60,460 nt of DNA from Thiohalomonas denitrificans (GTDB lineage Bacteria; Pseudomonadota; Gammaproteobacteria; Thiohalomonadales; Thiohalomonadaceae): the NCBI RefSeq assembly GCF_016841685.1, contig NZ_JAENYR010000015.1:1-60460 (forward strand), read 5' to 3'. The first letter of the stretch is position 1. Each line of letters begins with the position of its first letter. The notes beneath the pieces are model-generated. The model did no database searches. It saw only the letters and a program-made list of their open reading frames with translations, and was not told the origin of the DNA. Shown piece by piece: positions 1,566 to 58,694 of the stretch. The translations under genes and the position numbers were made by a program.

Positions 1566-2945
1566 TTAGTTGGGTTCGGCGGCCGTGACGCTCTTTTGCA
1601 GGAGTTGGCGTTCGAAGACGTTGCGATAGTCGCGAATGCGCTGCACGTAATCGACCGGCTCCCAGCCACGTGCATAACCGTAGGGGAGATCCCGATAGTG
1701 CTCCTTTTCGGCAAGCAGCGGCAGCACCTCTTTGAGATCGACCCAGCGATCAGGATTGCGCCCCAGGCGTTCGGCCAGGGTGCGCGCATCCCGCAGATGG
1801 GCGAAGCCGACATTGTACGCGGCCAGCGCGAACCAGAGGCGGTCCTCTCCCTGAACCGACTCCGGCAGCCGCTTCATCATTTGCGAAAGGTATTTGGCGC
1901 CACCCCGCACGCTTTGGGCGGGATCCAGCCGGCTTGCAACGCCGACCTCCTTGGCGGTGTTCAGGGTCAGCATCATCATGCCCCGCACTCCGGTCGGACT
2001 TTTGGCGCGGGGGTTCCAGTGCGACTCCTGATAGGCCTGAGCCGCCAGCAGAGTCCAGGGAAGCTGGTGGTGTTCCGCCGCCTCTCTGAACATGGTTTCG
2101 TAGCGCGGCAGGCGGCTCTCGATGCGTCGCATGAAGACACGCATGTCGACGTAATCGAATATCTCGGCGTAACCGTAATAGCGTTCATACAGGCGCGCCA
2201 TCAGACCCGCCTCTTTCGCCTCCTGAAACCATTCATGCAGGTAGGCCTCGAAGGCATCCGCATTCTCGGGTAGCACCCAGGCCAGTTGTTGTTGTTCGGA
2301 GATCGGAAATGCCACCAGCAATTCGGGAAGGTATCTTCGGTTGATGGCGACGATATTGGAATCTGCCACCGTGCAGTCAATTTCCCGCTTCCAGACCTTA
2401 TAGAGCAACTGTTCGGACCCCTGGCCCGCGTCCGCCTCCCAGGCCAGGTTCGGGTGCTCCTGCTGCAATGCCTTGAGTCGCTCCAGATAACTGGTTCCGG
2501 CCGCGACCCGCAACGCCTTTTCAGTCAATTCGATCGGTGATTTGGGTAATGGTTCCCCCCGCCGGCAGACGACTTCCTGCTGCACCGGGAAGTATTCAGG
2601 CCCGAAGCGGAATCGGCCGTTTCGGCTTTCAGTGCGTGTAATCCCGGCCGCAGCCAGGTGAGCTTCGCCATTCGCGACGGTGGCGAGCACCCCCTCGACA
2701 GAGTCGAGGACCTTGAATTCAACTTCGACCTCGAGCGACTCGGCCAGCGCCGAAACCAGGGAGTATTCGTAACCTTCGGGTCCCTCGCGGCCCTGGTAAT
2801 ACGTCGTAGGGGCGTTTCGGGTCACGACAATCAGTTTTCCATCCGATCGGATCGCCTCCAGAAGGTCCGGTGGCCGGTCGCAGCCGCTCAGTACTCCTAT
2901 CCCTACCCACATTACCAGTAAGTGCTTGAATCCCGGGGTCGGCAT
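1566..2945 (-). CDS. mltF: Membrane-bound lytic murein transglycosylase F
   Basis: 459 residues from the ATG at 2945. This start is preferred over an upstream in-frame ATG (3140) because it gives a lipoprotein signal ending in the lipobox LSGC with Cys22. MltF cleaves the MurNAc-GlcNAc bond of peptidoglycan, forming anhydro-MurNAc ends, and sits on the outer membrane. Residues ~30-260 are a periplasmic solute-binding (SBP_bac_3) domain, the usual regulatory half. Residues ~285-430 are the SLT domain with the catalytic Glu307 in QESHWNP and the downstream SPTGVRGMMMLT motif. Length is normal for the family. Confidence 0.93.
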   Translation of the reverse strand: MPTPGFKHLLVMWVGIGVLSGCDRPPDLLEAIRSDGKLIVVTRNAPTTYYQGREGPEGYEYSLVSALAESLEVEVEFKVLDSVEGVLATVANGEAHLAAAGITRTESRNGRFRFGPEYFPVQQEVVCRRGEPLPKSPIELTEKALRVAAGTSYLERLKALQQEHPNLAWEADAGQGSEQLLYKVWKREIDCTVADSNIVAINRRYLPELLVAFPISEQQQLAWVLPENADAFEAYLHEWFQEAKEAGLMARLYERYYGYAEIFDYVDMRVFMRRIESRLPRYETMFREAAEHHQLPWTLLAAQAYQESHWNPRAKSPTGVRGMMMLTLNTAKEVGVASRLDPAQSVRGGAKYLSQMMKRLPESVQGEDRLWFALAAYNVGFAHLRDARTLAERLGRNPDRWVDLKEVLPLLAEKEHYRDLPYGYARGWEPVDYVQRIRDYRNVFERQLLQKSVTAAEPN

Positions 2946-3070
2946 ACGGTGTCCCTCGACTAACCTCAAAGTATTCCACAAATTAACCGGGTGGGAGTCG
3001 GAGAACAAGCCAAGAGCTGCCGGGATGAGGAATAGCGGGTTTTCAATGAAGTGAAGCGTCGCCTCGGATC

Positions 3071-3952
3071 TCAACCCGATTTGGTGAGGAGACACACATA
3101 ATGGGCAGCAATTCCGCCGAAGATTGCCAGACCAAGCCACAGATTACTTTGGTAGGCGCGCTCGGCATCGCCGTGTCGGGCCCTAACCAAAAGGATCAAC
3201 TGATAGATGGCCACCATTGCTGCGGCCAGCCAGCCGAACTCGAAAAGGGGCCCCAGGCTGGCCCGTTGCCCAGCCAGGGCCGCCGCTGCCAACGCCCCGG
3301 CCTGAAGAAGCCCGACCACCAGCGGTGCACCGTCACCTACGAGATTCACCAGGGAGCGTGCGCCCAGCCGGTATTCCTGATCACGGCGCGGCAGGGCATA
3401 CAGAAGCAGAAAGGCGCTACTCCACATCAGCACGAACACGAACAGTAGCCAGGCGATCGGCCCGGGAGTCTCACCGTTGGCCAGCCAGGCTATGGGCACG
3501 GCCAGGGCCGTCGCCAGCGCCAGCACAAGGGAGCTCAAAAAGGTGTGCTGTCGAGCATAGGGATAGGCGATCAATAACCCCCAGGCCAAGGGGGAAAACA
3601 TCACTACATGCCGGCCCAGGTAGATGGCGCTTGCGAACGCAATGGCACACAACACCGTGAACAGGCGTACGGCCGTCTGCATGTCGAAGGTGCCGCGTGC
3701 GACCAATGATTCGGGTGAACCGTCAAAGAAACGGGCGTCGGCAAAATCGCAAAACACCCAGGCGCCGCAGCGCATCGCCAGTGCACCGAGAAGAAAGGCG
3801 AAAAGAGTATCGCCGGGCGGCACGCCCCCGGCGGCCATCCAGTTGGCGGAGAGTCCGGCGGCCACGAGGAAGCCGAGGTCCCAGGGTTCATGCAGGCGGG
3901 TGATCCGGATATAGCGCCCGATTCGGTCCCAGTTGATAGCCAGGGTTTCCAT
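3071..3952 (-). CDS. UbiA-family prenyltransferase, active-site motifs degraded
   Basis: 293-residue polytopic membrane protein of the UbiA superfamily (4-hydroxybenzoate polyprenyltransferase), read from an ATG whose A is shared with the ubiC TGA (TGATG coupling). A second ATG at 3964 is possible. The family needs two Asp-rich motifs to bind Mg-polyprenyl diphosphate. Here the first reads VFCDFADARFFD, with Cys instead of the conserved Asn, and the following KRTxxRPL is missing. The second (DTQYAxVDRDDD in E. coli) reads LLLYALPRRDQE, with most Asp lost. The position next to ubiC says ubiA, but the residues suggest altered or lost catalysis. Confidence 0.75.
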   Translation of the reverse strand: METLAINWDRIGRYIRITRLHEPWDLGFLVAAGLSANWMAAGGVPPGDTLFAFLLGALAMRCGAWVFCDFADARFFDGSPESLVARGTFDMQTAVRLFTVLCAIAFASAIYLGRHVVMFSPLAWGLLIAYPYARQHTFLSSLVLALATALAVPIAWLANGETPGPIAWLLFVFVLMWSSAFLLLYALPRRDQEYRLGARSLVNLVGDGAPLVVGLLQAGALAAAALAGQRASLGPLFEFGWLAAAMVAIYQLILLVRARHGDAERAYQSNLWLGLAIFGGIAAHYVCLLTKSG

Positions 3953-4515
3953 CAGCGACTCCAATCACCTTGCCAGGGCGGCAGCTCACCAATGAAGTAC
4001 TCGCTGACCAGCAGTGGACGTCCCGAGAGCCGAAAGATGGAGCGCCGTCCCCATACCCAAGGTTCCTCGCTCTCCACTTCGAGAACGGCAGGAGTTACTC
4101 GGCTTACCTCCAGGCGGCCACGCTGCGCCCTCGGGTCGCGGAACAGGACTTCGCCCAACGGTCGATTGCCGAGAAACGCCAGTCGACCGCCCGAGCCGCC
4201 CAATGTGCGCTTGGGAATTATCGTACGCGCAAATACCCACGGGACGTCATCACAAAGCAGCAGCACCTCCCGCACCATCGCCCTGCGACGCAGGGGCAAT
4301 TTCAGCGCTGCCGTTTCGCAGCTCATCGGAACGGCCCAGCCCTGACGCAAAACCCGGACCGCGAAGCGGCCGTCGCAGGCCTGCTTGAGCCTCCGGGTCA
4401 GAGAGGAGTCGTCGAGCAGCCACCCGGCGAGCTGCGGCGGCAGCGTATTCCGCCGCAACCGGTTCGCCGCCTGCCAAACAGGCTCTTTTCCCGCCTTGCC
4501 GCGATGTCTTTTCAT
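3952..4515 (-). CDS. ubiC: Chorismate pyruvate-lyase UbiC
   Basis: 187 residues from the ATG at 4515 (an upstream in-frame ATG at 4575 adds a poor leader). UbiC removes pyruvate from chorismate to give 4-hydroxybenzoate, the first committed step of ubiquinone synthesis, in the cytoplasm. The recognisable stretch runs from the SSLTRRLK segment through VPWVFARTIIP and the LGEVLF segment, matching UbiC order. The stop overlaps the start of the UbiA-like gene, a translationally coupled ubiCA pair as in E. coli. Confidence 0.88.
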   Translation of the reverse strand: MKRHRGKAGKEPVWQAANRLRRNTLPPQLAGWLLDDSSLTRRLKQACDGRFAVRVLRQGWAVPMSCETAALKLPLRRRAMVREVLLLCDDVPWVFARTIIPKRTLGGSGGRLAFLGNRPLGEVLFRDPRAQRGRLEVSRVTPAVLEVESEEPWVWGRRSIFRLSGRPLLVSEYFIGELPPWQGDWSR

Positions 4516-4707: not shown

Positions 4708-6807
4708 TCAAACCTCGCCGTAGCGTTCGCCCTGGCCCAGCCAGCGGTGGATAATGGCATCAACGGCTTCGGCATCCTGTTCCAGTAGCCGGTCGGCGGC
4801 ACGGGCCACCGCCGGCAGCAGCGGCTGATCCCGCTGCAGGTCGGCAATACGCAGGTTGAGCATGCCGGTCTGCCGGGTCCCCAGCACCTCACCCGGTCCC
4901 CGCAGCTCCAGGTCGCGGCGGGCGATCTCGAAGCCGTCGGCGGTCTCGCGCATAGCGGCCAGCCGTTGCCGCGCCGTCTGTGAGAGCGGTCCATGATACA
5001 TGAGGACACAGCTGCTTTTTTTGCGCCCGCGCCCAACCCGGCCACGTAGCTGGTGCAGCTGCGCAAGACCAAAGCGCTCCGCATTTTCGATGATCATGAG
5101 ACTGGCATTGGGAACATCCACTCCCACTTCGATGACCGTGGTGGCCACCAGCAGGTCGATGGCCCCCGTTTTGAACTCGGCCATGACCGACTCCTTGTCC
5201 TTTGGCTTCATGCGTCCGTGCACCAATCCGACCTTCAGATCCGGCAGCGCCGCGGCCAACTCTTCGGCGCTCTCCTCTGCTGCCTGGCACTGCAGGGCAT
5301 CCGACTCCTCCACCAGCGTACAGACCCAGTAGGCCTGGGCGCCGCTGCGGCAGGCGGCATGGACCCGCTCTACCACTTCGTCGCGGCGGGAATCCGCCAC
5401 CACCACGGTCTCCACCGGCGTACGGCCGGGGGGCAACTCGTCGATTACCGAGACGTCCAGGTCGGCGTAGGCGGTCATCGCCAGGGTTCGGGGGATGGGC
5501 GTGGCCGTCATGATCAGCTGATGGGGATAGCGCTCCCCGCTCTTGCCCTTTTCGCGCAGGGCGAGACGCTGATGTACACCAAAGCGGTGCTGTTCGTCGA
5601 TGACCACCAGTCCCAGCTCGTCGAAATCCACCGACTCTTGAAAAAGTGCATGGGTGCCGACCGCGACCGCGGCGGCTCCGCCGGCAAGGCGCTCCAGGGC
5701 TTCCCGCCGCGCCTTGGCCCTAAGTCTTCCGGAGAGCCACACCACCTCGAGGCCCAACGGTTCCAGCCAGCCTTTGAAACTTCGAAAGTGTTGTTCGGAC
5801 AGGATCTCCGTAGGCGCCATAATCGCTGCCTGGAAGCCGGCTTCGACCGCCTTCAGTACCGCCAGGGCGGCCACCACCGTCTTGCCCGAACCCACATCGC
5901 CCTGCACCAGGCGCTGCATGGGGTGCGGCTGGTCGAGATCGACTGCGATTTCGCCGCTGACACGCCGCTGGGCTCCGGTCAACGCGAAAGGCAAAGCGCT
6001 CTCGAACCGTTCACGCAGGCGGCCATCGCCGCCCAACGGCGGGGCACTGCTGTCGACTACTCGCGCCCGCAGACGGCGCAGACTCAGCCGATGCGCCAGC
6101 AGTTCTTCAAAGGCCAGTCGTTGCTGAGCCGGGTGCCGCCCCTCGCTCAGCACGCTCAGGGCCGCATCCGGTGGCGGGCGGTGTAGATAGGATAGCGCCT
6201 CGTTCAGCGGCGGCAGGCCGAACTCCTTCCGCACCACCTCGGGCAGCAGGTCCGGCGGCCCGCCGGCCGCCATTCGCCCCAGTGCCTGGTCGGTGAGCTG
6301 GCGCAAACTGATCTGGTGCAGCCCCTCGGTGGTGGGATAGATCGGGGTGAGATGCTCATCCACCGCTGCCGGTTCTTCACCCTCGATGCGACGGAATTCC
6401 GGATGGACCATCTCCAGAGTGGCGCTACCGGTACGCACCTGCCCGTAGCAGCGGATCCGTACTCTGCGCTCCAGCATTTCCCGCTGGGCGGCGTTGAAGT
6501 GAAAGAAACGCAGGCTCAGGCTGCCGGTGCCGTCGCTGATGCGGGAGAGCAGCATGCGGCGGCGGGTGAACTTCACCTCCGTGAGCTGCACCCGGCCCTC
6601 CACCACCGCTTCATCGCCGGGACGCAGGGTGCCTATCGGCGTGACCCGCGTGCGGTCCTGATAACGGTTGGGAAGATGGAACAGGAGATCCGACACCCGG
6701 GTGATGCCGAGCCGCTCGAGCCGCTCGGCAATGCGCGGCCCGACACCCCGCAAGGCGTTGACCGGAAGATCGGTCGGGTCGGCAGGGGCCTTACCTTGCG
6801 TCGCCAC
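4708..6807 (-). CDS. recG: ATP-dependent DNA helicase RecG
   Basis: 699 residues, typical RecG length. It remodels stalled replication forks and Holliday junctions by branch migration. Residues 1-~155 hold the HhH-like start (LRGVGPRIAERL) and the wedge/OB domain that grips the fork. Then the SF2 motor follows: Walker A GDVGSGKT, DEQH box VIDEQHRFG, motif III MTATPIPRT, and late motifs VGVDVPNA and QLRGRVGRG. It starts 5 nt after the ridA stop, so ridA-recG form one unit downstream of spoT as in other gammaproteobacteria. Confidence 0.97.
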   Translation of the reverse strand: MATQGKAPADPTDLPVNALRGVGPRIAERLERLGITRVSDLLFHLPNRYQDRTRVTPIGTLRPGDEAVVEGRVQLTEVKFTRRRMLLSRISDGTGSLSLRFFHFNAAQREMLERRVRIRCYGQVRTGSATLEMVHPEFRRIEGEEPAAVDEHLTPIYPTTEGLHQISLRQLTDQALGRMAAGGPPDLLPEVVRKEFGLPPLNEALSYLHRPPPDAALSVLSEGRHPAQQRLAFEELLAHRLSLRRLRARVVDSSAPPLGGDGRLRERFESALPFALTGAQRRVSGEIAVDLDQPHPMQRLVQGDVGSGKTVVAALAVLKAVEAGFQAAIMAPTEILSEQHFRSFKGWLEPLGLEVVWLSGRLRAKARREALERLAGGAAAVAVGTHALFQESVDFDELGLVVIDEQHRFGVHQRLALREKGKSGERYPHQLIMTATPIPRTLAMTAYADLDVSVIDELPPGRTPVETVVVADSRRDEVVERVHAACRSGAQAYWVCTLVEESDALQCQAAEESAEELAAALPDLKVGLVHGRMKPKDKESVMAEFKTGAIDLLVATTVIEVGVDVPNASLMIIENAERFGLAQLHQLRGRVGRGRKKSSCVLMYHGPLSQTARQRLAAMRETADGFEIARRDLELRGPGEVLGTRQTGMLNLRIADLQRDQPLLPAVARAADRLLEQDAEAVDAIIHRWLGQGERYGEV

Positions 6808-6812
6808 GCTGC

Positions 6813-7199
6813 TTAGCCGTTGAGCTCCATAACGGCATCCATCTCCACCCGGGCGCCCTTGGGCAGCGCAGCGACCCCGATGGCGGCGCGAGCCGGATAG
6901 GGCTGCTGGAAATAGCCGGCCATCACCTCGTTGACCAGCGGAAAGTGCGACAGGTCGGTCAGGAAGATGTTCAGCTTGGCCACATCGGCCAGGGAGCCGC
7001 CTGCGGCCTCGGCCACTGCCGACAGGTTATCGAAAACCCGCCGGATCTGCGCCTCGGCATCGTCCCCCACCAGCTCCATGGTTTCGGGAACCAGCGGGAT
7101 CTGCCCGGAAAGGTAAACAGTGCTCCCCACCTTGACGGCCTGGGAATAGGTACCGATGGCCGCAGGGGCCTTGTCGGTCTGGATGATCTCACGTGCCAT
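6813..7199 (-). CDS. ridA: Reactive imine/enamine deaminase RidA
   Basis: 128 residues from the ATG at 7199. This start is chosen for the GAGGAGCC ribosome site just upstream. It trims a longer in-frame reading that begins at 7235. RidA is a trimeric cytosolic enzyme that hydrolyses 2-aminoacrylate and related enamines released by PLP enzymes, protecting those enzymes. Family marks are visible: the [19 protein letters not shown] start, the VAKLNIFL strand and the [20 protein letters not shown] end with the carboxylate-binding Arg. It precedes recG. Confidence 0.96.
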
Positions 7200-13035: not shown

Positions 13036-15183
13036 CTATCCCCGCACCCGGGTGATCTTCAGGACTTCCGGGACGGTTCGAAGTCGGCGGATGATTCGTG
13101 CCAGGTGGCGGCGGCCGGATACCGACAGGGTCAGGAAAATGGCGGCGTGGACACCGTCACGCTCTTCGAGGCTGACGTTGTCGATATTGGCTCCGGTCTC
13201 AGCGACATTCGCGGCCAGGGTGGCGAGTACGCCGCGCTGGTTGGCCACTTCGATCCGGATATCCACCGGGAAGTCGCCCTCTACGCCGTTTTCCCACTCC
13301 ACGTCGAGCCAGCGTTCGGGCCTCTTGCGGTATTCGGAAAGGTTTTTGCAAGTTTGGGTATGGACCACGACACCGCGGCCGGCAGTGAGAAAACCGAGGA
13401 TGTGGTCACCGGGAATGGGGCGGCAGCATTTGGCGAAAGAGACCACCGTTCCTTCCGTTCCCTTGATGACCAGGGATGGTCTCTGATCCGCGGATTCGTC
13501 CGGTTCCTGACGCGGGACCAGCTGGTCGCGCATGAGGGTTCCGGTCACCAGCGGTGCCATACGGTTACCCAGCCCGATCTCCGCCAGTAGATCCTCAAGG
13601 GTCTCCAGCTTGTATTCCGTGAGCAGTGCCCTCAGGCGTTCGCTCGATACATCGTCCAAATGCCGTTCATGCGCGGCCATGGCTTTTTCCAGCATGCGCC
13701 GACCCAGGGCTACCGACTCGTCCCGCTTGAGGTTCTTGAGGTAGTGGCGAATGGTGGCCCGCGCCTTGCCGGTGACGACAAAGTTCAGCCAGGTAGGATT
13801 GGGGCGGGCTCCCGGGGCGGTGATCACCTCTACCGACTGGCCGCTCTGGAGTTTGGTGTGCAGTGGTACCAGGCGCCGCTCCACCTTGGCGGCGACACAG
13901 CGCTTGCCCACGTCGGTATGCACGGCGTAGGCAAAATCCACCGCGGTGGCCCCTCGGGGAAGCTCCATGATCTCCCCTTTGGGCGTGAAGACGTAGACCT
14001 CGTCGGGAAACAGGTCGACCTTGACGTTTTCGAGGAACTCCATTGAGTCGCCCGCACTCTTCTGCATCTCCAACAGGTTGGAGAGCCACTGGCGGGCTCG
14101 GGCCTGGGCGATGGAATGGCTCTCTTCGCCGCTTTTGTAGAGCCAGTGGGCGGCAATGCCGGCACGCGCCACCTTGTCCATATCCTCGGTGCGGATCTGT
14201 ACCTCGAGCGGAAATCCGTAGGGGGAGAGAAGCGTGGTGTGCAGCGACTGGTAACCGTTGGCTTTGGGAATGGCAATGTAGTCCTTGAACTTGCCCGGCA
14301 TCGGTTTATAGAGATTGTGCACCGCACCGAGCACGCGATAGCAGGTATCCACACTATCCACGACGATGCGCAGTGCGAACACATCCATGACATCCGTAAA
14401 GGAGACGTTCTTGTTGCGCATCTTTTTATAGATGCTGTACAGGTGCTTTTCACGCCCGTCGATCTCGCCCGACAGGTTCTCCTGACGCAGCCGTTCCTGG
14501 ATGGCGCTCTGTACACGAAGCACCACCTCCTTGCGATGCCCGCAGGCCTTGCGGACCGCCTCGGCGAGCACCTGGTAGCGCATCGGGTGGTAGGCGGCAA
14601 AACCGAGATCCTGAAGTTCCAACCGCACCGAATTGATGCCCAGGCGGCTGGCGATGGGGGCATAGGTCTCGAGGGTTTCGCGGGCGATACGGCGGCGCTT
14701 GTCGGGGCGCATGACACCCAGGGTGCGCATGTTGTGAAGCCGATCGGCGAGCTTGATGAGGATGACGCGGATATCCCGCACCATAGCCAGCATCATTTTG
14801 CGGAAGTTCTCGGCCTGGGCCTCGGCCTTCGATTCGAACTCGATGTGGGTAAGCTTGCTGACGCCGTCGACCAGCTCGGCGACCTCTTCACCGAATTCGG
14901 TGACCAACTGCTCTTTGGCAGTGGTCGTGTCCTCGATGACGTCGTGGAGAATGGCGGCAACGATGCTGCAGGCGTCCATGCGCATCTCGGCGAGGATGCG
15001 CGCCACGGCAAGCGGGTGATAGATATAGGGTTCGCCGGAGAGGCGGTGCTGACCTTCATGGGCCTCGGCACCAAACAGATAGGCCCGGTAAACCTCGGCG
15101 ACCTGGGCGGGCTCAAGATAGGACTCAAGCAGATCGCACAGATCACTGATGAGGAAAACCGGGCCTTCCTCCAGCACCGTCAT
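13036..15183 (-). CDS. spoT: Bifunctional (p)ppGpp synthetase/hydrolase SpoT
   Basis: 715 residues from the ATG at 15183; an upstream in-frame ATG at 15222 would overlap rpoZ and is rejected. The enzyme makes and degrades (p)ppGpp in the stringent response. The hydrolase domain keeps the HD motif (AAILHDVIEDT). The synthetase domain has KDYIAIPKANGYQSLHTT, with the basic KFKD loop of bifunctional Rel/SpoT rather than the acidic loop of RelA. TGS (VFTPKGEIMELPRGATAVDFAYAVHT region), a zinc-finger-like region and a C-terminal ACT domain follow. It begins 13 nt after rpoZ. Confidence 0.96.
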   Translation of the reverse strand: MTVLEEGPVFLISDLCDLLESYLEPAQVAEVYRAYLFGAEAHEGQHRLSGEPYIYHPLAVARILAEMRMDACSIVAAILHDVIEDTTTAKEQLVTEFGEEVAELVDGVSKLTHIEFESKAEAQAENFRKMMLAMVRDIRVILIKLADRLHNMRTLGVMRPDKRRRIARETLETYAPIASRLGINSVRLELQDLGFAAYHPMRYQVLAEAVRKACGHRKEVVLRVQSAIQERLRQENLSGEIDGREKHLYSIYKKMRNKNVSFTDVMDVFALRIVVDSVDTCYRVLGAVHNLYKPMPGKFKDYIAIPKANGYQSLHTTLLSPYGFPLEVQIRTEDMDKVARAGIAAHWLYKSGEESHSIAQARARQWLSNLLEMQKSAGDSMEFLENVKVDLFPDEVYVFTPKGEIMELPRGATAVDFAYAVHTDVGKRCVAAKVERRLVPLHTKLQSGQSVEVITAPGARPNPTWLNFVVTGKARATIRHYLKNLKRDESVALGRRMLEKAMAAHERHLDDVSSERLRALLTEYKLETLEDLLAEIGLGNRMAPLVTGTLMRDQLVPRQEPDESADQRPSLVIKGTEGTVVSFAKCCRPIPGDHILGFLTAGRGVVVHTQTCKNLSEYRKRPERWLDVEWENGVEGDFPVDIRIEVANQRGVLATLAANVAETGANIDNVSLEERDGVHAAIFLTLSVSGRRHLARIIRRLRTVPEVLKITRVRG

Positions 15184-15196
15184 GATCGGCGCCGGG

Positions 15197-15463
15197 TCAG
15201 GTGGTCTCTTCGCGGGCCTCATCCTCGCTGACAGTCGGCGCGGCGGCGGACAGATCTTCGGCGGCCGTTGTGTTCAGCAGTTCGCGGCCCACCTTGCCTT
15301 CTGCGATCTCGCGCAGGGCCACGACGGTCGGTTTATCGTTTTCCCAGTCCAGCAATGCCTCTTTCCCGTTGGCCAGCTGACGGGCACGCCGCGTGGCAAG
15401 CAGCACCAACTGAAAACGATTGTCGACGTTATCGAGGCAGTCTTCGACGGTTACTCGAGCCAT
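15197..15463 (-). CDS. rpoZ: RNA polymerase omega subunit
   Basis: 88 residues. Omega supports assembly of RNA polymerase by chaperoning beta-prime and forms a ppGpp site in proteobacteria. The start [20 protein letters not shown] and the ATRRARQL segment are diagnostic. It lies between gmk and spoT in the standard order. The tail after residue ~70 is acidic and variable. Confidence 0.97.
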
Positions 15464-36990: not shown

Positions 36991-37079
36991 CTGCCTGCGC
37001 CCGTACGCTAAATCGAAATTGGCTGCGCAAGGTCTAAGTGTGTTATCCGGTGCGCAACCGCCGACATTTCGTTATAGCC
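36984..37079 (+). repeat. attC-like site 0
   Basis: Runs from R'' GGCGCTAAC (36984-36992) to R' GTTATAGCC (37071-37079). Inner complementary parts (GCGCCCG and CGGTGCGC) allow hairpin folding, though pairing is weaker than in the following sites. R' is the start core of cassette 1. Confidence 0.6.
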
Positions 37080-37091
37080 AAGGAGAGTTCA

Positions 37092-37484
37092 GTGCCTTTT
37101 GACTTGCCGGAAGAGCAGCTGGCGCGCGCAGAAAGCGAACTAGGCGCCAGGTTGCCCAGCGACTACCGTGAAGCGATGAAGATAGATAACGGTGGCGAGG
37201 CGTCAACTCAAGAAGAGGATTGGGAGTTTTACCCCATCAGAGACACCTCGGATCGAAAAAGGCTTTCTAGAACGTGTAACCATATCATCAAGGAAACCGA
37301 GTCATGCCGCGGATTCGGAAACTTCCCGGATAACGCGGTTGCCATTGCGGGTAATGGCCTCGGGGACCAAATGGTTCTCCTAAGAGAAGGAGAGTCCTTT
37401 CGAGATACAGTGTACCTGTGGTTGCATGAAACGGGAGAACTCCAAGAGTTGGCGGCTTCGTTCAGTGAAATCGAAAAGCTATAA
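37092..37484 (+). CDS. SMI1/KNR4-like protein (cassette 1)
   Basis: 130 residues from the GTG at 37092, which follows an AGGAGAG site; an upstream in-frame ATG (37038) lies inside the attC site. The sequence (FDLPEEQLARAESELGARLPSDYREAMKIDNGGEA, then GNFPDNAVAIAGNGLGDQMVLL) matches the SMI1/KNR4 (SUKH) superfamily. These proteins are often immunity proteins to toxins. The stop TAA is inside R'' of attC1. Confidence 0.82.
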   Translation: MPFDLPEEQLARAESELGARLPSDYREAMKIDNGGEASTQEEDWEFYPIRDTSDRKRLSRTCNHIIKETESCRGFGNFPDNAVAIAGNGLGDQMVLLREGESFRDTVYLWLHETGELQELAASFSEIEKL

Positions 37485-39130: not shown

Positions 39131-39369
39131 AAGTATGGCGATCATGCGCAAACTGACAACTGAATCACCCCAGAGCAAGCCTCGGCACTTATGGCGATGG
39201 TCGGCGGCTGTAGCGTCTTCATTTTTTGTGAAACCATGCATGAGTGGTCAGGTGCCTGTGCTGGATCGAAGACACCACGGGATAACTGAGCTGGCAACGG
39301 CATTTAGTGGCGGCACTAGCCATGGTTCCCGGTCATCTGCGCCTGAGAGTTACGCGGAGGGCCATCCCG

Positions 39370-40275
39370 ATGGATGACGTCGAGCGCGCCTTTCGCGAGC
39401 TTCAGTTCAAAACCGCCTACTTGGAGAAAAAGGGGAACGAGTTTCAAGACTGGTTCGCCACCATCATGGAGAAGCGGTTCCCGGGCGACTTCATTCGTGT
39501 CCGGCCGTGGGGAAAGGCGGGTGATCGCAAGAACGACGGGTACGTGAGGTCGAAGCGCTGGCTTTTTCAGGTCTACGCGCCGAACGACATGTCGGCCAAG
39601 GCGGCGCTCGCCAAAATCGACGAGGATTACACTGGGGCACTCCCCTGCTGGCAGGAATACTTTGACACATGGATCTTCATGCATAACTCGAAGTTGGGCC
39701 TCGGCCCCGACGTGGCCGCCAAGCTCGTGGAGCTTGATGGGGCGGGGCCTCCTGCCGTCGTTGCGTGGGGCTTCGAGGAGCTGAGGCGAATCGTGTTTGA
39801 GCTCAAAGTGGCGGAGTTGGCGTCGCTCTTCGGTCCTGTGCCTCAAAAGCGAGATATCGTGAATCTAGGGCTTGAAAGCCTGTCGCCTGTACTCGACCAT
39901 ATTTCGGCGATGGAGCCAAGCCTGGAGCCTGATCTGCGGCCCCCTCCGGCCGACAAGATCGACCGCAACATGTTGTCTGAGCACGTTGCGATCTTGTTGA
40001 AGGCGGGCATGACCCGTGTTGATCTCGTCAGGAAGTATTTTCGGGTGCAGCCGGGGAGAAGGGATGAGATCGCCGAGAGTTTCCGTCACCGCTACGACGA
40101 GGTACGCAGCGACAGCCTCAGCCCCGACGAGACATTCGCCGCTCTCCAACGTCACGCCGCTGGTGATGGCGTTCCGTCGCCTTCGCGCCAGAGTGCGGCA
40201 CTCGCAGTTCTGGCGTTCTTCTTCGAGGAGTGCGACATATTTGAGCGGGAAGGAGTCCAAGGAGGAACGGCATGA
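39370..40275 (+). CDS. ABC-3C system effector with nuclease-like domain
   Basis: 301 residues from the ATG at 39370, after a GGAGGG site. Residues ~15-75 look like a PD-(D/E)xK nuclease fold in its QxY form: Glu24 (GNEFQDWF), Asp52 and Asp56 (GDRKNDGY), and Gln67-x-Tyr69 (LFQVYAP). The rest (~180-301) resembles the helical C-terminal domain of ABC-three-component effectors. The family has been described by Krishnan and colleagues as predicted conflict systems. First of three genes overlapping by 4 nt. Confidence 0.8.
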   Translation: MDDVERAFRELQFKTAYLEKKGNEFQDWFATIMEKRFPGDFIRVRPWGKAGDRKNDGYVRSKRWLFQVYAPNDMSAKAALAKIDEDYTGALPCWQEYFDTWIFMHNSKLGLGPDVAAKLVELDGAGPPAVVAWGFEELRRIVFELKVAELASLFGPVPQKRDIVNLGLESLSPVLDHISAMEPSLEPDLRPPPADKIDRNMLSEHVAILLKAGMTRVDLVRKYFRVQPGRRDEIAESFRHRYDEVRSDSLSPDETFAALQRHAAGDGVPSPSRQSAALAVLAFFFEECDIFEREGVQGGTA

Positions 40276-40529
40276 TCCTCCCGACCAAGGGAATAGGACC
40301 CGACAAGGCGCTCCTGTCCGTCGGGGCCTTCATCCTACGTGAACTCGACGAGCCGAAGACCGTCTCGCGACTGTGGAGTGATCTGCGCCGAGTCGAAGAA
40401 GGTCCCCCGGCTCTCACTTTCGACTGGTTCGTCCTTTCGCTCGACCTGCTTTACCTGATGGGCACGTTAGACTACATCGGCGGGCGTGTCGTGAGAGTCG
40501 GTCCCGTCGAAGCCGAGGGGGAAGAGTGA
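40272..40529 (+). CDS. ABC-3C middle component
   Basis: 85 residues, one small winged-helix-like unit (LSVGAFILRELDEPKTVSRLWSDLRR, then FDWFVLSLDLLYLMGTLDYIGGRVVRV). In ABC-3C systems the middle component connects effector and ATPase. It overlaps the effector by ATGA and the ATPase by GTGA, tying translation of all three together. Confidence 0.8.
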   Translation: MILPTKGIGPDKALLSVGAFILRELDEPKTVSRLWSDLRRVEEGPPALTFDWFVLSLDLLYLMGTLDYIGGRVVRVGPVEAEGEE

Positions 40530-42274
40530 TTCACCGGATTTACAGCGATCTGCCCTCGTTCAAGGAGCTGCAGTTCACCGAAGGTCTCAACATCTTGCTG
40601 GCCCAGAAGAGCGAGGGTGCGACAGAGCGGCACACCCGCAACCGTGCCGGTAAGTCGAGCATGCTCGAGATGGTCCACTTCCTACTTGGCTCCAACGCTT
40701 CCAAGGACTCCCTCTTCCGGACGCCCGCCATCGCCGACTACGAGTTTGGCATGGAGTTCGACCTCGCCGAAGAGCGCACATTGGTGCAGAGACGGGGAGC
40801 CAAGGCTAGTCCGCTGGCTGTCGAGGGTGACTTCTCAGCTTGGCCGGTGAAGCCACGACTCAAGGATGGTCGCTATTGGATCAGCAACAAGAACTGGCGG
40901 CTTGTTCTCGGGGCGCTGATGTTCGGCCTCGAAGACTACCAAGAGAGCTGGACGCCGTCATTCAGGTCGATGATCTCCTACTTCGCTCGGCGGGAGCGTA
41001 GCGGAGGAATGCACGTCCCCGTCAAGCAGAGCGAGAAGCAAGCTACGGCAGACCAGCAAGTCAACCTGTCGTACCTCCTAGAGCTCGACTGGACGATCCC
41101 GTTGGAGTGGCAGCAGGTTCGAGAAAGAGAGAGGAACCTCGCCGAGTTAAAGAAGAGCCTGAAGAAGGGCTCGTTCGGCCAAGTGATCGACAAAGCGTCC
41201 ACGCTGAAGACCCAGGTGCTTGTCGCTGAGGATCGGGCCAACCGCCTTAAGGAGCAGGTGGCCACCTTCACGGTCGTCGATGAATACCACGACCTCGAAC
41301 AGGAGGCGTCGAGGATGACGACGGACCTCGCCGCCCTCGCTGACGAGAACACGCTGGACCACCGCTATATTAGCGACTTGGAGCGGGCGATGGAGGAGGA
41401 GATACCGCCGTCTCCGCCCGACCTCCAGAGGTTGTACCGGGAGGCAGGCGTGGTCCTGCCCGACGTCGTGCAACGTCGATTCGACGACGTGAAGAGCTTC
41501 CACGAGTCGGTGCTCCAGAACCGGAAATCGTACCTCCAGACAGAACTGGCGGCGGCGAAGCGCCGGATCGCAGAGCGGGGCGAGGAGCAGCAGCGGCTCG
41601 ATGCTCGGCGTGGCGAGATCATGCAGATCCTTAATGCCAATGGCGCACTGGACCACTTCACCGCACTCCAAGCAGAAATCGCCAGAGCGGAAGTCGAACT
41701 CGAATCGCTCCGGAAGAAGTACGAAACGGCCGATGCACTGGAGTCGGGCACCACCAAGCTCAAGGTGGAGCGTGCACGACTCCAAGAACGGCTGCGGGAG
41801 GACTACACCGAGCAGCAGGATGTGGTGAAGGCGGCCATCCTGACGTTCCAGCGGATCTCGTCGTCCCTGTACGAGGACAAAGCGGCGGGTAGCCTGACGC
41901 TGACGCCTACCGAAAACGGGCCGGAGTTCGAGATCGAGATACAGGGCGCTAAGAGCCGCGGCGTTAGCAACATGCAGATCTTCTGCTTCGACATGATGCT
42001 CACGCTATTGAGCATCGAACGGGGTCGGAGCCCGGGGTTTCTGATTCACGATAGTCATCTGTTCGACGGTGTCGATGAACGGCAGGTCGGGACCGCATTG
42101 GCCCTCGGCGCGAGACTGGCCGAGGAGCATGGCTTCCAGTACATCGTGAGCCTCAACACGGACGACGTTCCCACCGAGGTTCCCGACGGATTCAGCATTG
42201 AGGAACACACACTCGATGTCCGGCTGTCGGACGCAACCGAGGAAGGCGGGCTCTTCGGCTTCCGCTTCGGCTGA
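40526..42274 (+). CDS. ABC-3C ATPase (DUF2326-type, SMC-like)
   Basis: 582 residues from a GTG. The N-terminal part has a Walker A-like loop NRAGKSS around Lys43, but no Gly at its first position. Long coiled-coil (~190-430) follows. The C-terminal part has the signature region RGVSNMQIFCFD and a Walker B-like strand GFLIHDSHLFDG, where the usual Glu after Asp is Ser-His, a form known in this family. Expected role is sensing and ATP-driven control of the nuclease component. Overlaps the previous gene by 4 nt. Confidence 0.82.
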   Translation: MIHRIYSDLPSFKELQFTEGLNILLAQKSEGATERHTRNRAGKSSMLEMVHFLLGSNASKDSLFRTPAIADYEFGMEFDLAEERTLVQRRGAKASPLAVEGDFSAWPVKPRLKDGRYWISNKNWRLVLGALMFGLEDYQESWTPSFRSMISYFARRERSGGMHVPVKQSEKQATADQQVNLSYLLELDWTIPLEWQQVRERERNLAELKKSLKKGSFGQVIDKASTLKTQVLVAEDRANRLKEQVATFTVVDEYHDLEQEASRMTTDLAALADENTLDHRYISDLERAMEEEIPPSPPDLQRLYREAGVVLPDVVQRRFDDVKSFHESVLQNRKSYLQTELAAAKRRIAERGEEQQRLDARRGEIMQILNANGALDHFTALQAEIARAEVELESLRKKYETADALESGTTKLKVERARLQERLREDYTEQQDVVKAAILTFQRISSSLYEDKAAGSLTLTPTENGPEFEIEIQGAKSRGVSNMQIFCFDMMLTLLSIERGRSPGFLIHDSHLFDGVDERQVGTALALGARLAEEHGFQYIVSLNTDDVPTEVPDGFSIEEHTLDVRLSDATEEGGLFGFRFG

Positions 42275-53486: not shown

Positions 53487-53659
53487 GCTCTTTCTCCGTA
53501 GAAAAGGCTAGCACCCTCTTAAGATCGCGTCTTTGGAGGCGCTCACGCTAATGGTTAGCCTACTGGAAAAAGAACAGAAGTTCGTATAGCCAATCCTCTG
53601 ATAAAGTTGAAGGTTCGCTGATCGGTGTGGGATGGATAATAGAGTGAGCGCTCACCGTT

Positions 53660-53704
53660 TTGAGAATCCCCGTGTCGGCGGTTCGATTTCGTCCTTGGCC
53701 GCCA
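53660..53704 (+). repeat. att direct repeat 2 (degenerate tRNA-Phe copy)
   Basis: 45 bp matching the tRNA-Phe 3' half with four substitutions. Its upstream ~40 bp resemble those before repeat 1. The right border of segment 2, and older than the border at 44805 judging by the mutations (inference). Confidence 0.85.
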
Positions 53705-54039
53705 GAATTCAAGCAGTTAAAGCCCGCGCCAGCGAGCTTTTTCGTTGGGTGTGCCAGGCATGGCACTTCTGAACAGGTGGTGCTGGGACAATCTTGGGGG
53801 CGCAAGTCCCCTGTGGGCCTGGCAAGCGGAACTAGCCGACCGCATGACCATTTCAACCAACTCCTGGAAGGGGGCCCCGAACCTCTCTGTCGACGGCAAA
53901 GTCAAACCAGGAACGGACCCGCGGCAGCCTGTCGGGTTACCATGGCCATCCGGCCCTCGGGGCCGTGAGCGTTTCCGATACGCAGGTCGAGCCGGCACTC
54001 CTGCGCATCCATTCACCATCCCCGGCAAATGGGTATCCC

Positions 54040-55245: not shown

Positions 55246-55487
55246 GGCGAGTGAATCAAGCGGTGCGGTCGCGGCAGCCTGCCGCGCGCCTCTGACTTCT
55301 ACGCCCAGGCAGCCCCGGGAGACCGAATCAAAGCGGACAGTCGCGGTTGTCCGCCGGGCGACAACTCCAGGAAGGTAGCCTTGAGCTTGCAAGCGACGTA
55401 AACGCACGTTGTGGATCTTCTGATGAAGGCCTTCTTGGGGACTGTGCGGGCAAGCGGTGCGGCTGAAGTCGCCCACGAGGACTCCTC

Positions 55488-56201
55488 ATGACAGCGTTGC
55501 TTGGAATCGACTGCGCTACACAGCCGAAAAAGGTAGGTTTGGCTCTCGGCGAATTGCGTAAGGGCCGCGTTTGCATTCTTGAGTGTTGCATAGGTAGCGC
55601 AACGGCGTCTCCAGTGGACATAGCGGCCGACTGGCTCGCCAACGTTGAAAGCGCTTTGATCGCTCTTGACGCGCCCCTTGGCTGGCCGATATCTCTGGCA
55701 ACCGCATTGGCCGACCATCGGGCCGGCTCAGGCATGCGGGCGCCTGCCGATGACCTCTTTCGCCGACTCACCGATATCGAAATCAGGCGCCGATTGGGCA
55801 AGAAGCCCCTGGAAGTCGGCGCGAACCTCATCTCCAGAACAACCGTCGCTGCACTGGAGCTGCTTGAGGGGATTCGGGCGAAAACCGGGCTGCCGGTTTC
55901 TCTGGCATGGGCGCCGGACGAGCCCGAACCGATCCGTACCATCGAGGTTTATCCAGCCGCCACGCGCCTCGCGCACTCGGCACAAAGTGGCGGTGGCAGT
56001 GTGGAAGGGCTCATGAGGGTACTCGATCGTTCGGGGTTCACCCTTGAGGGGGTTGGGCCTGACGCGATGGATGCGGCCGTTTGCGCTTTGGGGGCCGCCG
56101 ATTTCTTGGGTGGACGAGCGGTGGGGCCGGAATCGAGTGATATGCAGCGGGTACTCGTTGAGGGTTGGATATGGTCGGCCGACCGACCGAGCGTTAACTG
56201 A
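55488..56201 (+). CDS. DUF429 protein
   Basis: 237 residues. GIDCATQPKKVGLALGE with LIALDAPLGWP and IEVYPAATRLAH are marks of DUF429, predicted to have an RNase H-like fold. The Asp-rich pattern (GID, LDAP, PDAMDAAVCAL) could bind metal. No substrate known. It precedes the HipA-like kinase by about 90 bp. Confidence 0.85.
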   Translation: MTALLGIDCATQPKKVGLALGELRKGRVCILECCIGSATASPVDIAADWLANVESALIALDAPLGWPISLATALADHRAGSGMRAPADDLFRRLTDIEIRRRLGKKPLEVGANLISRTTVAALELLEGIRAKTGLPVSLAWAPDEPEPIRTIEVYPAATRLAHSAQSGGGSVEGLMRVLDRSGFTLEGVGPDAMDAAVCALGAADFLGGRAVGPESSDMQRVLVEGWIWSADRPSVN

Positions 56202-56292
56202 GCACTGCCAGCAGCGGAATTCGGGGGTAATTGGTGCAGAATGGTGTCGTTTCGTGCACGATCCGTCCGAATGACAGAAGGTTGGAGTTAGT

Positions 56293-57258
56293 GTGGGGAG
56301 AGAAGGCACTTGGGTTGATCAACCTACCGACGAGCCGGTGAATGTGGCGCGTTGGAAGGCGGACGAAGAATTCGGCGTCTATCCCGAGGGTGCCCGGGAC
56401 AAAAGCCTGCTTATCTCTCCGGAACCGAAACCACACCTGTTTCTGATCCCGAGCCATCGCTATCTTTTCAAGAAATCTTTTGAGCGATATCCAGAGCAAT
56501 TTTGGGCGGAGATCATCGCCTACCGAGTCGGATGCCTGATTAAAGCGCCTGTGCCACCGGCCTTCGTGGGTTGGGATAGTGACAATGGCGTTTGCGGTGC
56601 TCTGGTCGAATGGTTTCTGGAGTACCCCGGAGACCCAGCGGAGCGCTACGTCCCTGGTGGCGATATCATGACCGACATGATCAAGGGGTTCGACCGAAGG
56701 CGGGGCCGCCAACACAACTTCGTCAGTATCGAGCGGTACTCTACGGTTTCCAGACGGAGCGGAAAGCTGGATGGCGACTGGCTGTTGTGGTGGTGCGATA
56801 CGCTTTTGCTTGACGCCCTTGTCGGTAACACCGATCGGCACCAGGATAATTGGGGTCTCCTCTGGCGCGATAGCGAACGGGCCAGAATGGCACCGGCTTT
56901 CGATAACGGAACCAGTTTGGGTCATGAGCTAGTTAACCGAAAGCTGGCCGGTTTTGCGGACCCCGACCGTATGGCTCGGTATATCGAGCGAGGAACCCAC
57001 CACATGCGCTGGAGGCTTGGTGATGAGTCTCAGGCCCAGCACTCGCAGCTGGTGGTGCAGCTTTGCGAAAGGCATCCGACGCTAAGAGAGCGCGCGAAAA
57101 TGCGGTTGAAACAGTTCAACATGGATACGATGAGGTCTATCATCACCGGAATGACGGCCTTCGATGTTCCGACCCCGCTAAGCGAAGAGCGGGCGGAATT
57201 CGTGTCTAATCTCACGGAAACACGTTATCGAAAGCTTCTCGAAGCGCTTTGCGGATAG
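56293..57258 (+). CDS. HipA-like kinase (C-terminal domain only)
   Basis: 321 residues. The kinase core of HipA is recognisable: an ATP-binding Lys near 60 (LFKKSF), the catalytic loop LVGNTDRHQDNW with Asp181 and Asn186, and the metal-binding FDNG with Asp204. HipA proteins phosphorylate proteins such as glutamyl-tRNA synthetase. This one has no HipA N-subdomain, and no hipB antitoxin precedes it. The next gene starts 2 nt after its stop and probably supplies the partner. Confidence 0.85.
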   Translation: MGREGTWVDQPTDEPVNVARWKADEEFGVYPEGARDKSLLISPEPKPHLFLIPSHRYLFKKSFERYPEQFWAEIIAYRVGCLIKAPVPPAFVGWDSDNGVCGALVEWFLEYPGDPAERYVPGGDIMTDMIKGFDRRRGRQHNFVSIERYSTVSRRSGKLDGDWLLWWCDTLLLDALVGNTDRHQDNWGLLWRDSERARMAPAFDNGTSLGHELVNRKLAGFADPDRMARYIERGTHHMRWRLGDESQAQHSQLVVQLCERHPTLRERAKMRLKQFNMDTMRSIITGMTAFDVPTPLSEERAEFVSNLTETRYRKLLEALCG

Positions 57259-57260
57259 CT

Positions 57261-57992
57261 ATGCAACTGATTGAACATACTTTTCTGCCTTTCCGTTTGC
57301 TCCTTACCTGGCAAGCCCCTGAGGGCAAGGAGCGGAGACGGTTTGCCGTGGGCGAACTGCGGGAAGCACAGGGTGGACTCTCATTTCGGTACCTGACGGA
57401 GAGCGAGGATTTCCGGAAGGCGCAGGAATTGGGCTTCAACTGCTATCCCGCCTTTCGCAAGACGAACCAGGTGTATTTTCATGGCGTCCGTGAGGCCTTT
57501 TTGCGTCGGGTACCGCCACGTTCGCGCAAGGACTTTCCCAAGTTTCTTCAGCAGTGGCGGCTTCGTGCTGACTCGGAGCTGCCCGATTTTACCCTCCTGG
57601 CGTATTGTGGAGCCAAGTTGCCGTCCGACGGATTCTCGCTGGTGTGGCCGCTGGAAGAGGTTACCCCGCCGGGGGAAGTCCTCCTTGAGGTTGCGGGTTT
57701 TCGCTACCAGGACATCCGATTAGAAGAACTGTCTGCCGGCATGCCGGTTCGCTTTACGCTGGAGCCAAGTAACCCTAAGGATCCAAATGCGTTGCGCATG
57801 GATGTAGACGGACGTCCTATCGGGTACGTCAACCGCTTCCAGCGCAATGCGGTAGCCAACTGGCTCGGACGTCACCAAATTGATGCATGGGTTGAGCGCT
57901 TCAATGGAACCTCCGAACGGCCACTGGTCTACGTATATTGCCGGGTATCAGAGCAGTCCAGTGCGCAACTGCCCCGAGCGGCTACTTGCTAG
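57261..57992 (+). CDS. HIRAN-domain protein, partner of the HipA-like kinase
   Basis: 243 residues from the ATG at 57261 (a TTG at 57249 would overlap the kinase). Residues ~130-215 are a HIRAN domain (VAGFRYQDIRL, FTLEPSNPKDPNALRMDV, GRPIGYVNRFQ), known to bind DNA 3' ends in other proteins. Residues 1-110 (VGELREAQGGLSFRYLTESEDF, then FLRRVPPRSRKDFPKFL) look like the HipA N-subdomain. Its position right behind a kinase without that subdomain suggests it is the missing half or the antitoxin (inference). Confidence 0.8.
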   Translation: MQLIEHTFLPFRLLLTWQAPEGKERRRFAVGELREAQGGLSFRYLTESEDFRKAQELGFNCYPAFRKTNQVYFHGVREAFLRRVPPRSRKDFPKFLQQWRLRADSELPDFTLLAYCGAKLPSDGFSLVWPLEEVTPPGEVLLEVAGFRYQDIRLEELSAGMPVRFTLEPSNPKDPNALRMDVDGRPIGYVNRFQRNAVANWLGRHQIDAWVERFNGTSERPLVYVYCRVSEQSSAQLPRAATC

Positions 57993-58175
57993 AGCCGCGT
58001 CTAGATTCGTTGTACCAGATCGCATCTCGCTTCCGCCCTCCACCTGATCAAGAAACTGATTTTCGGCCCGGCGGTCCGATTGGTGCATCTTTGGATTCGC
58101 GGAAACTTGCGCGAATGCGGGATATTGGGTGTGCCAGAAGGGGAGTGTTTTCTTGTTCATGCTTATCCCAAAAAT

Positions 58176-58203
58176 GAAAAAACCGCCTCAGGCGGCTTTT
58201 TCT
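58176..58203. terminator. Bidirectional terminator
   Basis: Stem CCGCC-TCA-GGCGG is flanked by A-run and T-run, so it can stop both strands. It lies 190 bp past the HIRAN gene. Confidence 0.85.
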
Positions 58204-58256
58204 CCCCATGGTAGAGCCGAAGCCGACTGCGCCAAAGGGTAGGCTGGTCTTGACCA

Positions 58257-58292
58257 TATCGCTTATTGCCGATGTCGACAATAAGCGATATT
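58257..58292. repeat. Perfect 13-bp inverted repeat
   Basis: ATATCGCTTATTG and CAATAAGCGATAT are exact complements with a 10-bp spacer (CCGATGTCGA). Its symmetry resembles an operator, but no gene next to it requires one. It could also be an insertion remnant. Confidence 0.55.
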
Positions 58293-58694
58293 AGCGGAGA
58301 TCGGTCGGGAGTCGGGCTAAAAGGTCGCATATCTACTCAAGCTTGATATGGCCTGTTCAGCGATCTCGGCACGAATTCATGGAATCTTCGGGTTGGTGGC
58401 TTCCACATCAGGAAGGAAGTTCCCCGAAAATCGAGGTCCTCGGGCCAGGGTGGGCTACAACGGCTTGAAACGATCTGAGAGATTCAAGTGCGGCACAGCG
58501 TGGACAAGATCATTTTAACCTGCTTTCGTAGGATTTGAACAGTAAGCAGGCGCCGCAAGTGTTTTTTTCATCTGGATTCGCACTTTTTCGCGAGAACTGA
58601 TGTGGTTCCATGCAGTCAATTGTGACTAACATCACCTAAATCCCGCCGGCAATCGGCGACCCTTTGTAAAATTCTTCTATTTCCAGGGTCTGCA

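Follow-up and report, generated by a model that had tools for sequence, protein, structure and literature searches.

A hipIN-type gene pair in Thiohalomonas denitrificans: a HipA-like kinase core and a HIRAN partner predicted to bind DNA ends

What a protein with a predicted affinity for DNA ends may do beside a HipA-like kinase is the question raised by two adjacent genes in the window, i.e. the whole stretch of 60,460 nt that was analysed (Thiohalomonas denitrificans, NZ_JAENYR010000015.1, positions 1 to 60,460, forward strand). A first-pass annotation had read this pair as a split HipA variant in which the DNA-end-binding partner controls the kinase, possibly activated by damaged or foreign DNA. 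Both reading frames were recovered at 56293-57258 and 57261-57992, 2 nt apart, and the motifs GNTDRHQDNW and FDNG, by which the first had been recognised as a kinase, are both present in its product.

The gene pair and its surroundings

The features of the locus are as follows:

56293..57258, + strand: hipI, HipI-type Ser/Thr kinase core of 321 aa, PDC-M03A (ORF, Pfam, PADLOC)
57261..57992, + strand: hipN, HipN-type partner of 243 aa, PDC-M03B, HipS/HipA-N-like with a C-terminal HIRAN domain (Pfam, PADLOC, structure model)
57288..57650, + strand: predicted HipS/HipA-N-like domain of HipN, residues 10-130 (VIA-align; weak co-linear match to HipA 4-108)
57666..57968, + strand: HIRAN domain of HipN, residues about 136-236 (Pfam PF08797, structure, HLTF alignment, conservation)
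55488..56201, + strand: DUF429 gene, ending 91 nt upstream of hipI, within the variable slot; possibly, at most, a member of hipIN
55287..58620, no strand: variable slot holding DUF429, hipI and hipN, with unrelated sequence there in a same-genus genome
58176..58202, no strand: terminator-like inverted repeat in both orientations, 3' of hipN (12-pair stem on the - strand; 5-pair core at 58183-58195 on the + strand)

The start codon of hipI is GTG, backed by the nearest relative, whose alignment begins at residue 1, and that of hipN is ATG. A stop codon and a frame change separate the two genes in the window, and they thus do not encode one polypeptide. Promoter and terminator scans around the pair gave no excess of sites over shuffled sequences, and no HTH regulator adjoining the pair was found among the ORFs and their Pfam matches. 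Apart from DUF429, the nearest genes of the window look like housekeeping genes (S1-domain and Gly-zipper proteins by Pfam; the others by eye). The DUF429 protein shows a modest match to the PADLOC single-gene candidate PDC-S44 (E 4.1e-8). Its gene was considered as a constant third component and rejected: no match was found among 67 related loci as fetched, and within the family its own genome was the single carrier out of 20.

In a genome of the same genus (G019), both flanks of the slot are kept (93% and 85% identity), with approximately 3.8 kb of other sequence opposite window positions 55287-58620. This exchange pattern fits a horizontally exchanged cassette. No tRNA was found near the slot. 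The GC content of the pair is 0.55-0.58, that of the gene to its left reaching 0.69; low GC was considered as a sign of transfer and set aside as weak, other nearby 600-base windows also having values of 0.56-0.57. The slot sits between the S1-domain gene and genes that appear, by eye, to be arsenate-reductase-like and ArsR-like. Other small genes occupy the slot in the same-genus genome (locus L140), in which a second insertion of approximately 8 kb lies opposite window 53623-53874.

Other defence-like genes occur elsewhere in the window. A three-gene ABC-three-component (ABC-3C) system was identified at 39307-42274, its outer two genes matching PADLOC PDC-M68A and PDC-M68B:

39307-40275: CTD10
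40272-40529: MC6
40526-42274: DUF2326/CTD10

Upstream of it, where third-position GC is low, lies an SMI1/KNR4 (SUKH) immunity-like gene (37038-37484). A gene of 728 aa at 13036-15222 partially matches the PADLOC candidate PDC-S33 (E 4.4e-13, residues 233-346).

Judged by its domains, gene order and PADLOC matches, the pair is a further member of hipIN and not a new system. Gerdes, Baerentsen and Brodersen (2021) named hipIN and hipL with the same domains, and their hipIN kinases (279-321 aa) form the HipI subclades of clade XI of the Hip Tree (PMC8262856). As in hipIN, a short kinase core without N-subdomain 1 is followed by a downstream HipS-like and HIRAN gene in the window, and no difference in gene order or proposed role was found. 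Sensing of phage DNA ends by HIRAN as the trigger of abortive infection has been proposed before (PMC8262856), and the corresponding idea of the first-pass annotation is therefore already in print; neutralisation of HipI by HipN is putative in that paper too. In hipL (PHROG 26212) the same three domains are found in the same order, in one polypeptide as against two in the window. Adjacent matches to M03A and M03B also relate the pair to PADLOC PDC-M03, itself a candidate system. Among the matches listed for the open-licence literature, no functional test of hipIN, hipL or PDC-M03 was found, and in that literature PDC-M03 was not found by name.

Two other split systems were compared. HipBST resembles the window pair in having a kinase core and a separate N-subdomain-like partner, but its HipS lies upstream of HipT, it has no HIRAN domain and an HTH protein, HipB, is present (PMC8262856, PMC10627512). 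Membership of HipBST was accordingly rejected for the window pair, which has a downstream partner with a HIRAN domain, no HTH protein and DUF429 as its upstream gene. PDC-M66 likewise combines a short HipA-like kinase with a second-gene partner, which is DUF3037 and not a HipS-HIRAN protein; it has been described to defend against one phage, the kinase being needed, and deletion of its DUF3037 gene is toxic (PMC12548924). No DUF3037 match was found in the three window proteins scanned, and the pair was not assigned to PDC-M66.

The kinase core and its HIRAN partner

HipI matches PADLOC PDC-M03A (E 2.4e-38) and, at 1.1 bits below the curated cut-off, Pfam HipA_C (E 7.6e-7, 29.4 bits). Its motif residues comprise a Gly-rich loop (G33-K37), Lys60, catalytic D181 and N186, and Mg-binding D204; in the hhalign alignment to E. 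coli HipA, D309, N314 and D332 correspond to D181, N186 and D204, respectively. G33, K37, K60, D181, N186 and D204 are invariant in all 39 aligned HipI rows. The position of HipA T158 is S38, and that of HipA S150 is Y30 in the window protein and Tyr, Phe or His in 38 of the 39 rows (one gap), never Ser or Thr. It follows that regulation of HipI cannot copy that of HipA.

The natural fusion L115 (viral contig, 547 aa), of which the kinase part is 34% identical to window HipI, was modelled from 56 rows as a stand-in for the HipI kinase fold (pLDDT 91.9, pTM 0.90). Alignments A4 and A7 of the fused protein were dropped for A8, kinase tails having fallen under the partner domain. The kinase half of the model matched CtkA (Z 25.9), Legionella HipT (Z 18.2) and residues 122-437 of E. 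coli HipA (Z 17.2), alignment with HipA beginning only from residue 121-125 onward. From this match the protein is predicted to be a kinase core without N-subdomain 1, which, together with the profile matches, upholds the first description of the kinase. The closest solved kinase by both sequence profile and fold is CtkA (PDB 3akj/3akk/3akl). To our knowledge, CtkA has no HIRAN partner.

HipN matches PADLOC PDC-M03B (E 2.4e-30), and Pfam HIRAN covers its residues 138-219 above the cut-off. Its model, built from 42 rows, has a pLDDT of 95.1 and a pTM of 0.89. Foldseek matches were to the HIRAN domains of HLTF and to lp_0118; residues 135-237 align with HLTF HIRAN at Z 8.7 and residues 136-231 with uncharacterised lp_0118 at Z 10.3, while the HIRAN half also resembles Rad5 (Z 7.4) and HamB of the Hachiman defence system (Z 6.1). 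The C-terminal HIRAN domain noted at first was thereby confirmed by both profile and structure.

The N-terminal half was compared with the HipA N-terminal region by sequence and by structure. Using hhalign, 18 HipN relatives were co-linear with E. coli HipA over 103 columns at E 0.084 and a probability of 0.7%, and with 42 close relatives a mere 20 columns aligned. HipS was not among the 50 Foldseek matches listed for HipN. By VIA-align, residues 10-130 matched HipS of E. coli HipBST (7ab3_B) over 98 of 100 residues (Z 7.2, rmsd 2.9), a match that comes from this second look only and lies in the zone of caution (Z below 8) but spans nearly the whole target; residues 8-133 matched the HipA N-terminal domain (7czo) at Z 5.7. 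The HipA-N-like fold first suspected in the partner is thus weak by sequence and is carried by the modelled structure at Z 7.2.

In HLTF, the substitution R71E blocks binding of 3'-OH ends, and N90A,N91A has been used as a HIRAN mutant (PMC11366124). By alignment, with HLTF residues counted from R71, R71 corresponds to R148 of HipN (Arg in 36 of 42 rows) and N91 to N171 (Asn in 38 of 42); D174 of HipN is Asp in 35 of 42. An HLTF-type HIRAN fold with its residues for 3'-OH ends therefore appears to be retained, and DNA-end binding itself is predicted. HIRAN domains tested in other proteins bind DNA ends, and most bacterial HIRAN domains are described by Gerdes as lacking the Phe needed for duplex binding (PMC8262856).

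Co-inheritance, fusion and neighbourhoods of relatives

At a threshold of 1e-12, PDC-M03B matches were found in 22 of 369 genomes of the class (15 over most of its length and seven over the HIRAN part alone). PDC-M03A adjoins the full-length match in 14 of these 15 genomes; the recurrence as a pair that the first-pass annotation had asked for is hence borne out. The exception is G198: in the 19.5 kb retrieved about its full-length HipN-type gene there is no kinase match. When an alignment of six HipN proteins served as query, 46 loci were recovered from named genomes and 21 from viral contigs, i.e. 67 in total; with the window protein alone as query no close viral-contig relatives had been found. 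A plasmid search returned one record and a phage search two. Four pairs of loci were judged to be the same sequence under two identifiers (L063/L067, L064/L079, L066/L077 and L101/L118), and some of the viral loci are nearly identical to one another.

Among the 46 genome loci, an intact kinase lies upstream in 38 and is fused in one, while three have a partial kinase and four none by the criterion used. The partner gene thus has no intact kinase beside it in seven: broken pieces were seen in L069, L071, L072 and L090 and a 28-residue remnant in L076, L074 begins at a contig end, and no kinase was found in L087 on closer look. The 21 viral loci comprise 15 fused and six split forms. An overlap of 4 nt is seen more often than any other spacing (16 of 36 split pairs). 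Across the 36 split pairs, the window included, HipI and HipN distances correlate (Mantel r 0.82; none of 5000 permutations as high), and this co-divergence indicates that the pairing is not due to chance. The nearest relative of the window pair is L067, at 66% and 62% identity.

PHROG 26212 (547 positions) matches HipI over positions 6-311 and HipN over 317-543; it spans both proteins in series and thus represents the two joined into one. Such fusions account for 16 of the 67 related loci. In a tree of 12 of the 16 fused rows with 39 split and eight distant HipI rows, the fused rows fall inside the split ones, all 12 in a 14-row group (100/100) together with the split pairs L100 and L111, whose fork among the fused rows is valued at 92/83 and not starred. 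In view of this placement and of a separate, broken fusion in L072, a single origin of the fusion is at most possible. The L072 fusion (2103-3551), in a Methylobacter MAG near the window clade, is the second between kinase and partner and carries a frame break in the kinase. Among 5426 complete E. coli genomes, 61 carry one such fused gene at an identity of at least 99%. In Escherichia phage 899 (L008, 7053-8696), the deposited HipL start (7137) lies 28 codons after the likely start at 7053, by which the Gly-rich loop is lost.

A type I restriction-modification (RM) subunit was identified within 6 kb in 11 of the 46 genome loci. Nine have Methylase_S (hsdS), all Pfam-confirmed; beyond these, L091 has N6_Mtase (hsdM) and L098 HsdR. 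The pair may lie inside the operon: in L103 it is located between hsdS, which ends at 4414 where hipI starts, and an HsdM-like gene that starts at 6063, hipN ending at 6062. The hsdS gene is immediately 5' of hipI in L067, L094 and L095, the order in L010 (a Rhodococcus plasmid) is S, hipI, hipN, M, and that in L056 is, by similarity, M, S, hipI, hipN. Of 14 regions fetched from the unbiased sample of the class, two (L056 and L063) carry, by similarity, S and M genes of a type I system. As a rough control, Methylase_S was found in 172 of 369 class genomes and in none of the other 197, the search scoring at most nine candidates per genome (up to 16 were seen). A worst case of 16 sites of 12 kb in approximately 3 Mb gives 0.064 per locus, and nine sites give 0.04; treating the loci as unrelated, the chance of at least nine in 46 is 0.0023 and 7.5e-5, respectively. 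Other direct neighbours are integrases (L084 and L085), DUF3037 (L111), AbiU2-HEPN (L105) and DUF5655 (L097), and many other loci have no defence- or integrase-type neighbour of these kinds. The DUF3037 gene of L111 (7645-8079), in a Rheinheimera MAG, is directly upstream of the hipIN pair.

A gene for an Rv2179c-like DEDD exonuclease, Pfam-confirmed on two loci, lies directly upstream of all 16 fused genes and of split L100, with a gap of 3-17 nt (L106, L115-L117, L119-L128, L132, L133 and L100). Beside the fused loci there are also a cluster of replication-endonuclease-like genes (16 of 16) and portal-like and terminase-like genes (15 of 16), the cluster representatives matching the corresponding genes of Escherichia phage 899. 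From their gene order we take these contexts to be P2-like. No DEDD-type exonuclease was found beside the window pair, the neighbour of which is DUF429. The defence context anticipated in the first-pass annotation was thus seen among relatives, in type I RM operons and prophages, and is weak in the window, where it consists of a PDC-S44-like neighbour. In the main texts of the open-licence literature, as far as these were available, no mention was found of lodging in hsd operons or of an exonuclease with fused HipL.

Possible modes of action of HipI and HipN

The reading that is tentatively preferred, at somewhat less than even confidence, is that hipIN is an abortive-infection module in which HipN holds the kinase inactive until DNA ends release it. 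HipI would be a Ser/Thr kinase that arrests translation or growth, its substrate being, as expected by analogy, an aminoacyl-tRNA synthetase. The HipS-like domain of HipN would cap it, by analogy with HipS, which caps HipT, and with N-subdomain 1, which sits on HipA; binding of DNA ends by the HIRAN domain would free HipI from HipN, and the freed kinase would arrest the cell. Domain content, intact catalytic and end-binding residues, joint inheritance of the two genes, fused forms in nature and the association with restriction operons and phage contexts are observed directly, whereas we infer inhibition by HipN, gating by DNA ends, the substrate of the kinase and a role in defence. Capping is suggested by HipS on HipT, which is blocked through Trp65 of HipS (PMC10627512), and by the pair of a HipA-like kinase and DUF3037. 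DNA ends are proposed as the ligand from the HIRAN family and its conserved residues. In fused HipL the kinase is tied to its cap and HIRAN domain in a 1:1 ratio and there is no antitoxin that could part from it, which would favour a ligand-gated switch over antitoxin decay. Against the preferred reading stand the change at the S150 position, G198 and the seven of 46 loci without an intact kinase, the Phe that most bacterial HIRAN domains are described as lacking, and the housekeeping-like neighbours.

The same fusion weighs on the first alternative, considered rather unlikely, by which hipIN stabilises mobile elements as a usual toxin-antitoxin pair of type II-like kind, HipN inhibiting HipI and its HIRAN domain binding DNA for no more than autoregulation or localisation, with neither end sensing nor an anti-phage role. 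It agrees with the occurrence of relatives in phages or phage-like surroundings, next to integrases and on a mobilizable plasmid. Autoregulation by HipB in hipBA and hipBST (PMC8262856) and the lack of an adjoining HTH regulator in the window agree with it as well. Fused HipL, however, leaves post-segregational killing without a distinct labile antitoxin, the end binding of tested HIRAN domains (PMC8262856) would suit an operator poorly, and lodging inside hsd operons is unexpected for an addiction module alone.

The sign of HipN action could also be the opposite. The active form of the HipA kinase includes N-subdomain 1, and HipN might accordingly be an activator that completes HipI and brings it to DNA ends, where it would phosphorylate DNA-bound replication, repair or restriction proteins. 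The tight spacing of hipI and hipN, the existence of fusions and the action of type I RM enzymes at DNA would suit such a role. It is nevertheless judged unlikely: in the nearest split pair whose biochemistry is known, HipS inhibits HipT (PMC10627512), and in the case of a related short HipA-like kinase, deletion of the partner is toxic (PMC12548924).

Two further possibilities concern the nature of the ligand. As hipIN genes can lie inside hsd operons, the module could be the output arm of type I restriction, HipN sensing short DNA pieces with 3' ends, produced as phages or restriction enzymes break DNA, whereupon its HIRAN domain would release the growth-arresting kinase, and the DEDD exonuclease or diDNase genes next to the phage and Gram-positive forms erasing the signal; this is improbable, and would, if true, represent nucleotide-fragment signalling in bacterial immunity. 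A signalling variant, in which the HIRAN ligand is a short DNA fragment from restriction or phage breakdown (a dinucleotide, or an oligonucleotide whose 3' end is free) and the DEDD exonuclease erases it, gains from the exonuclease upstream of the fused loci and L100 and from the report that approximately one third of deoxydinucleotide-specific DEDD nuclease genes in Gram-positives adjoin HipA and HIRAN genes (PMC11706625), but is very improbable, the window pair having DUF429 alone in that place.

One more hipIN pair is in itself ordinary. Its comparative context sharpens the published idea of a DNA-end-gated kinase and makes it testable, with a domain of DNA-end-binding type tied to a HipA-type kinase by co-inheritance and fusion. 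Should the kinase indeed be switched by DNA ends, hipIN would directly link DNA cleavage to growth arrest in bacteria.
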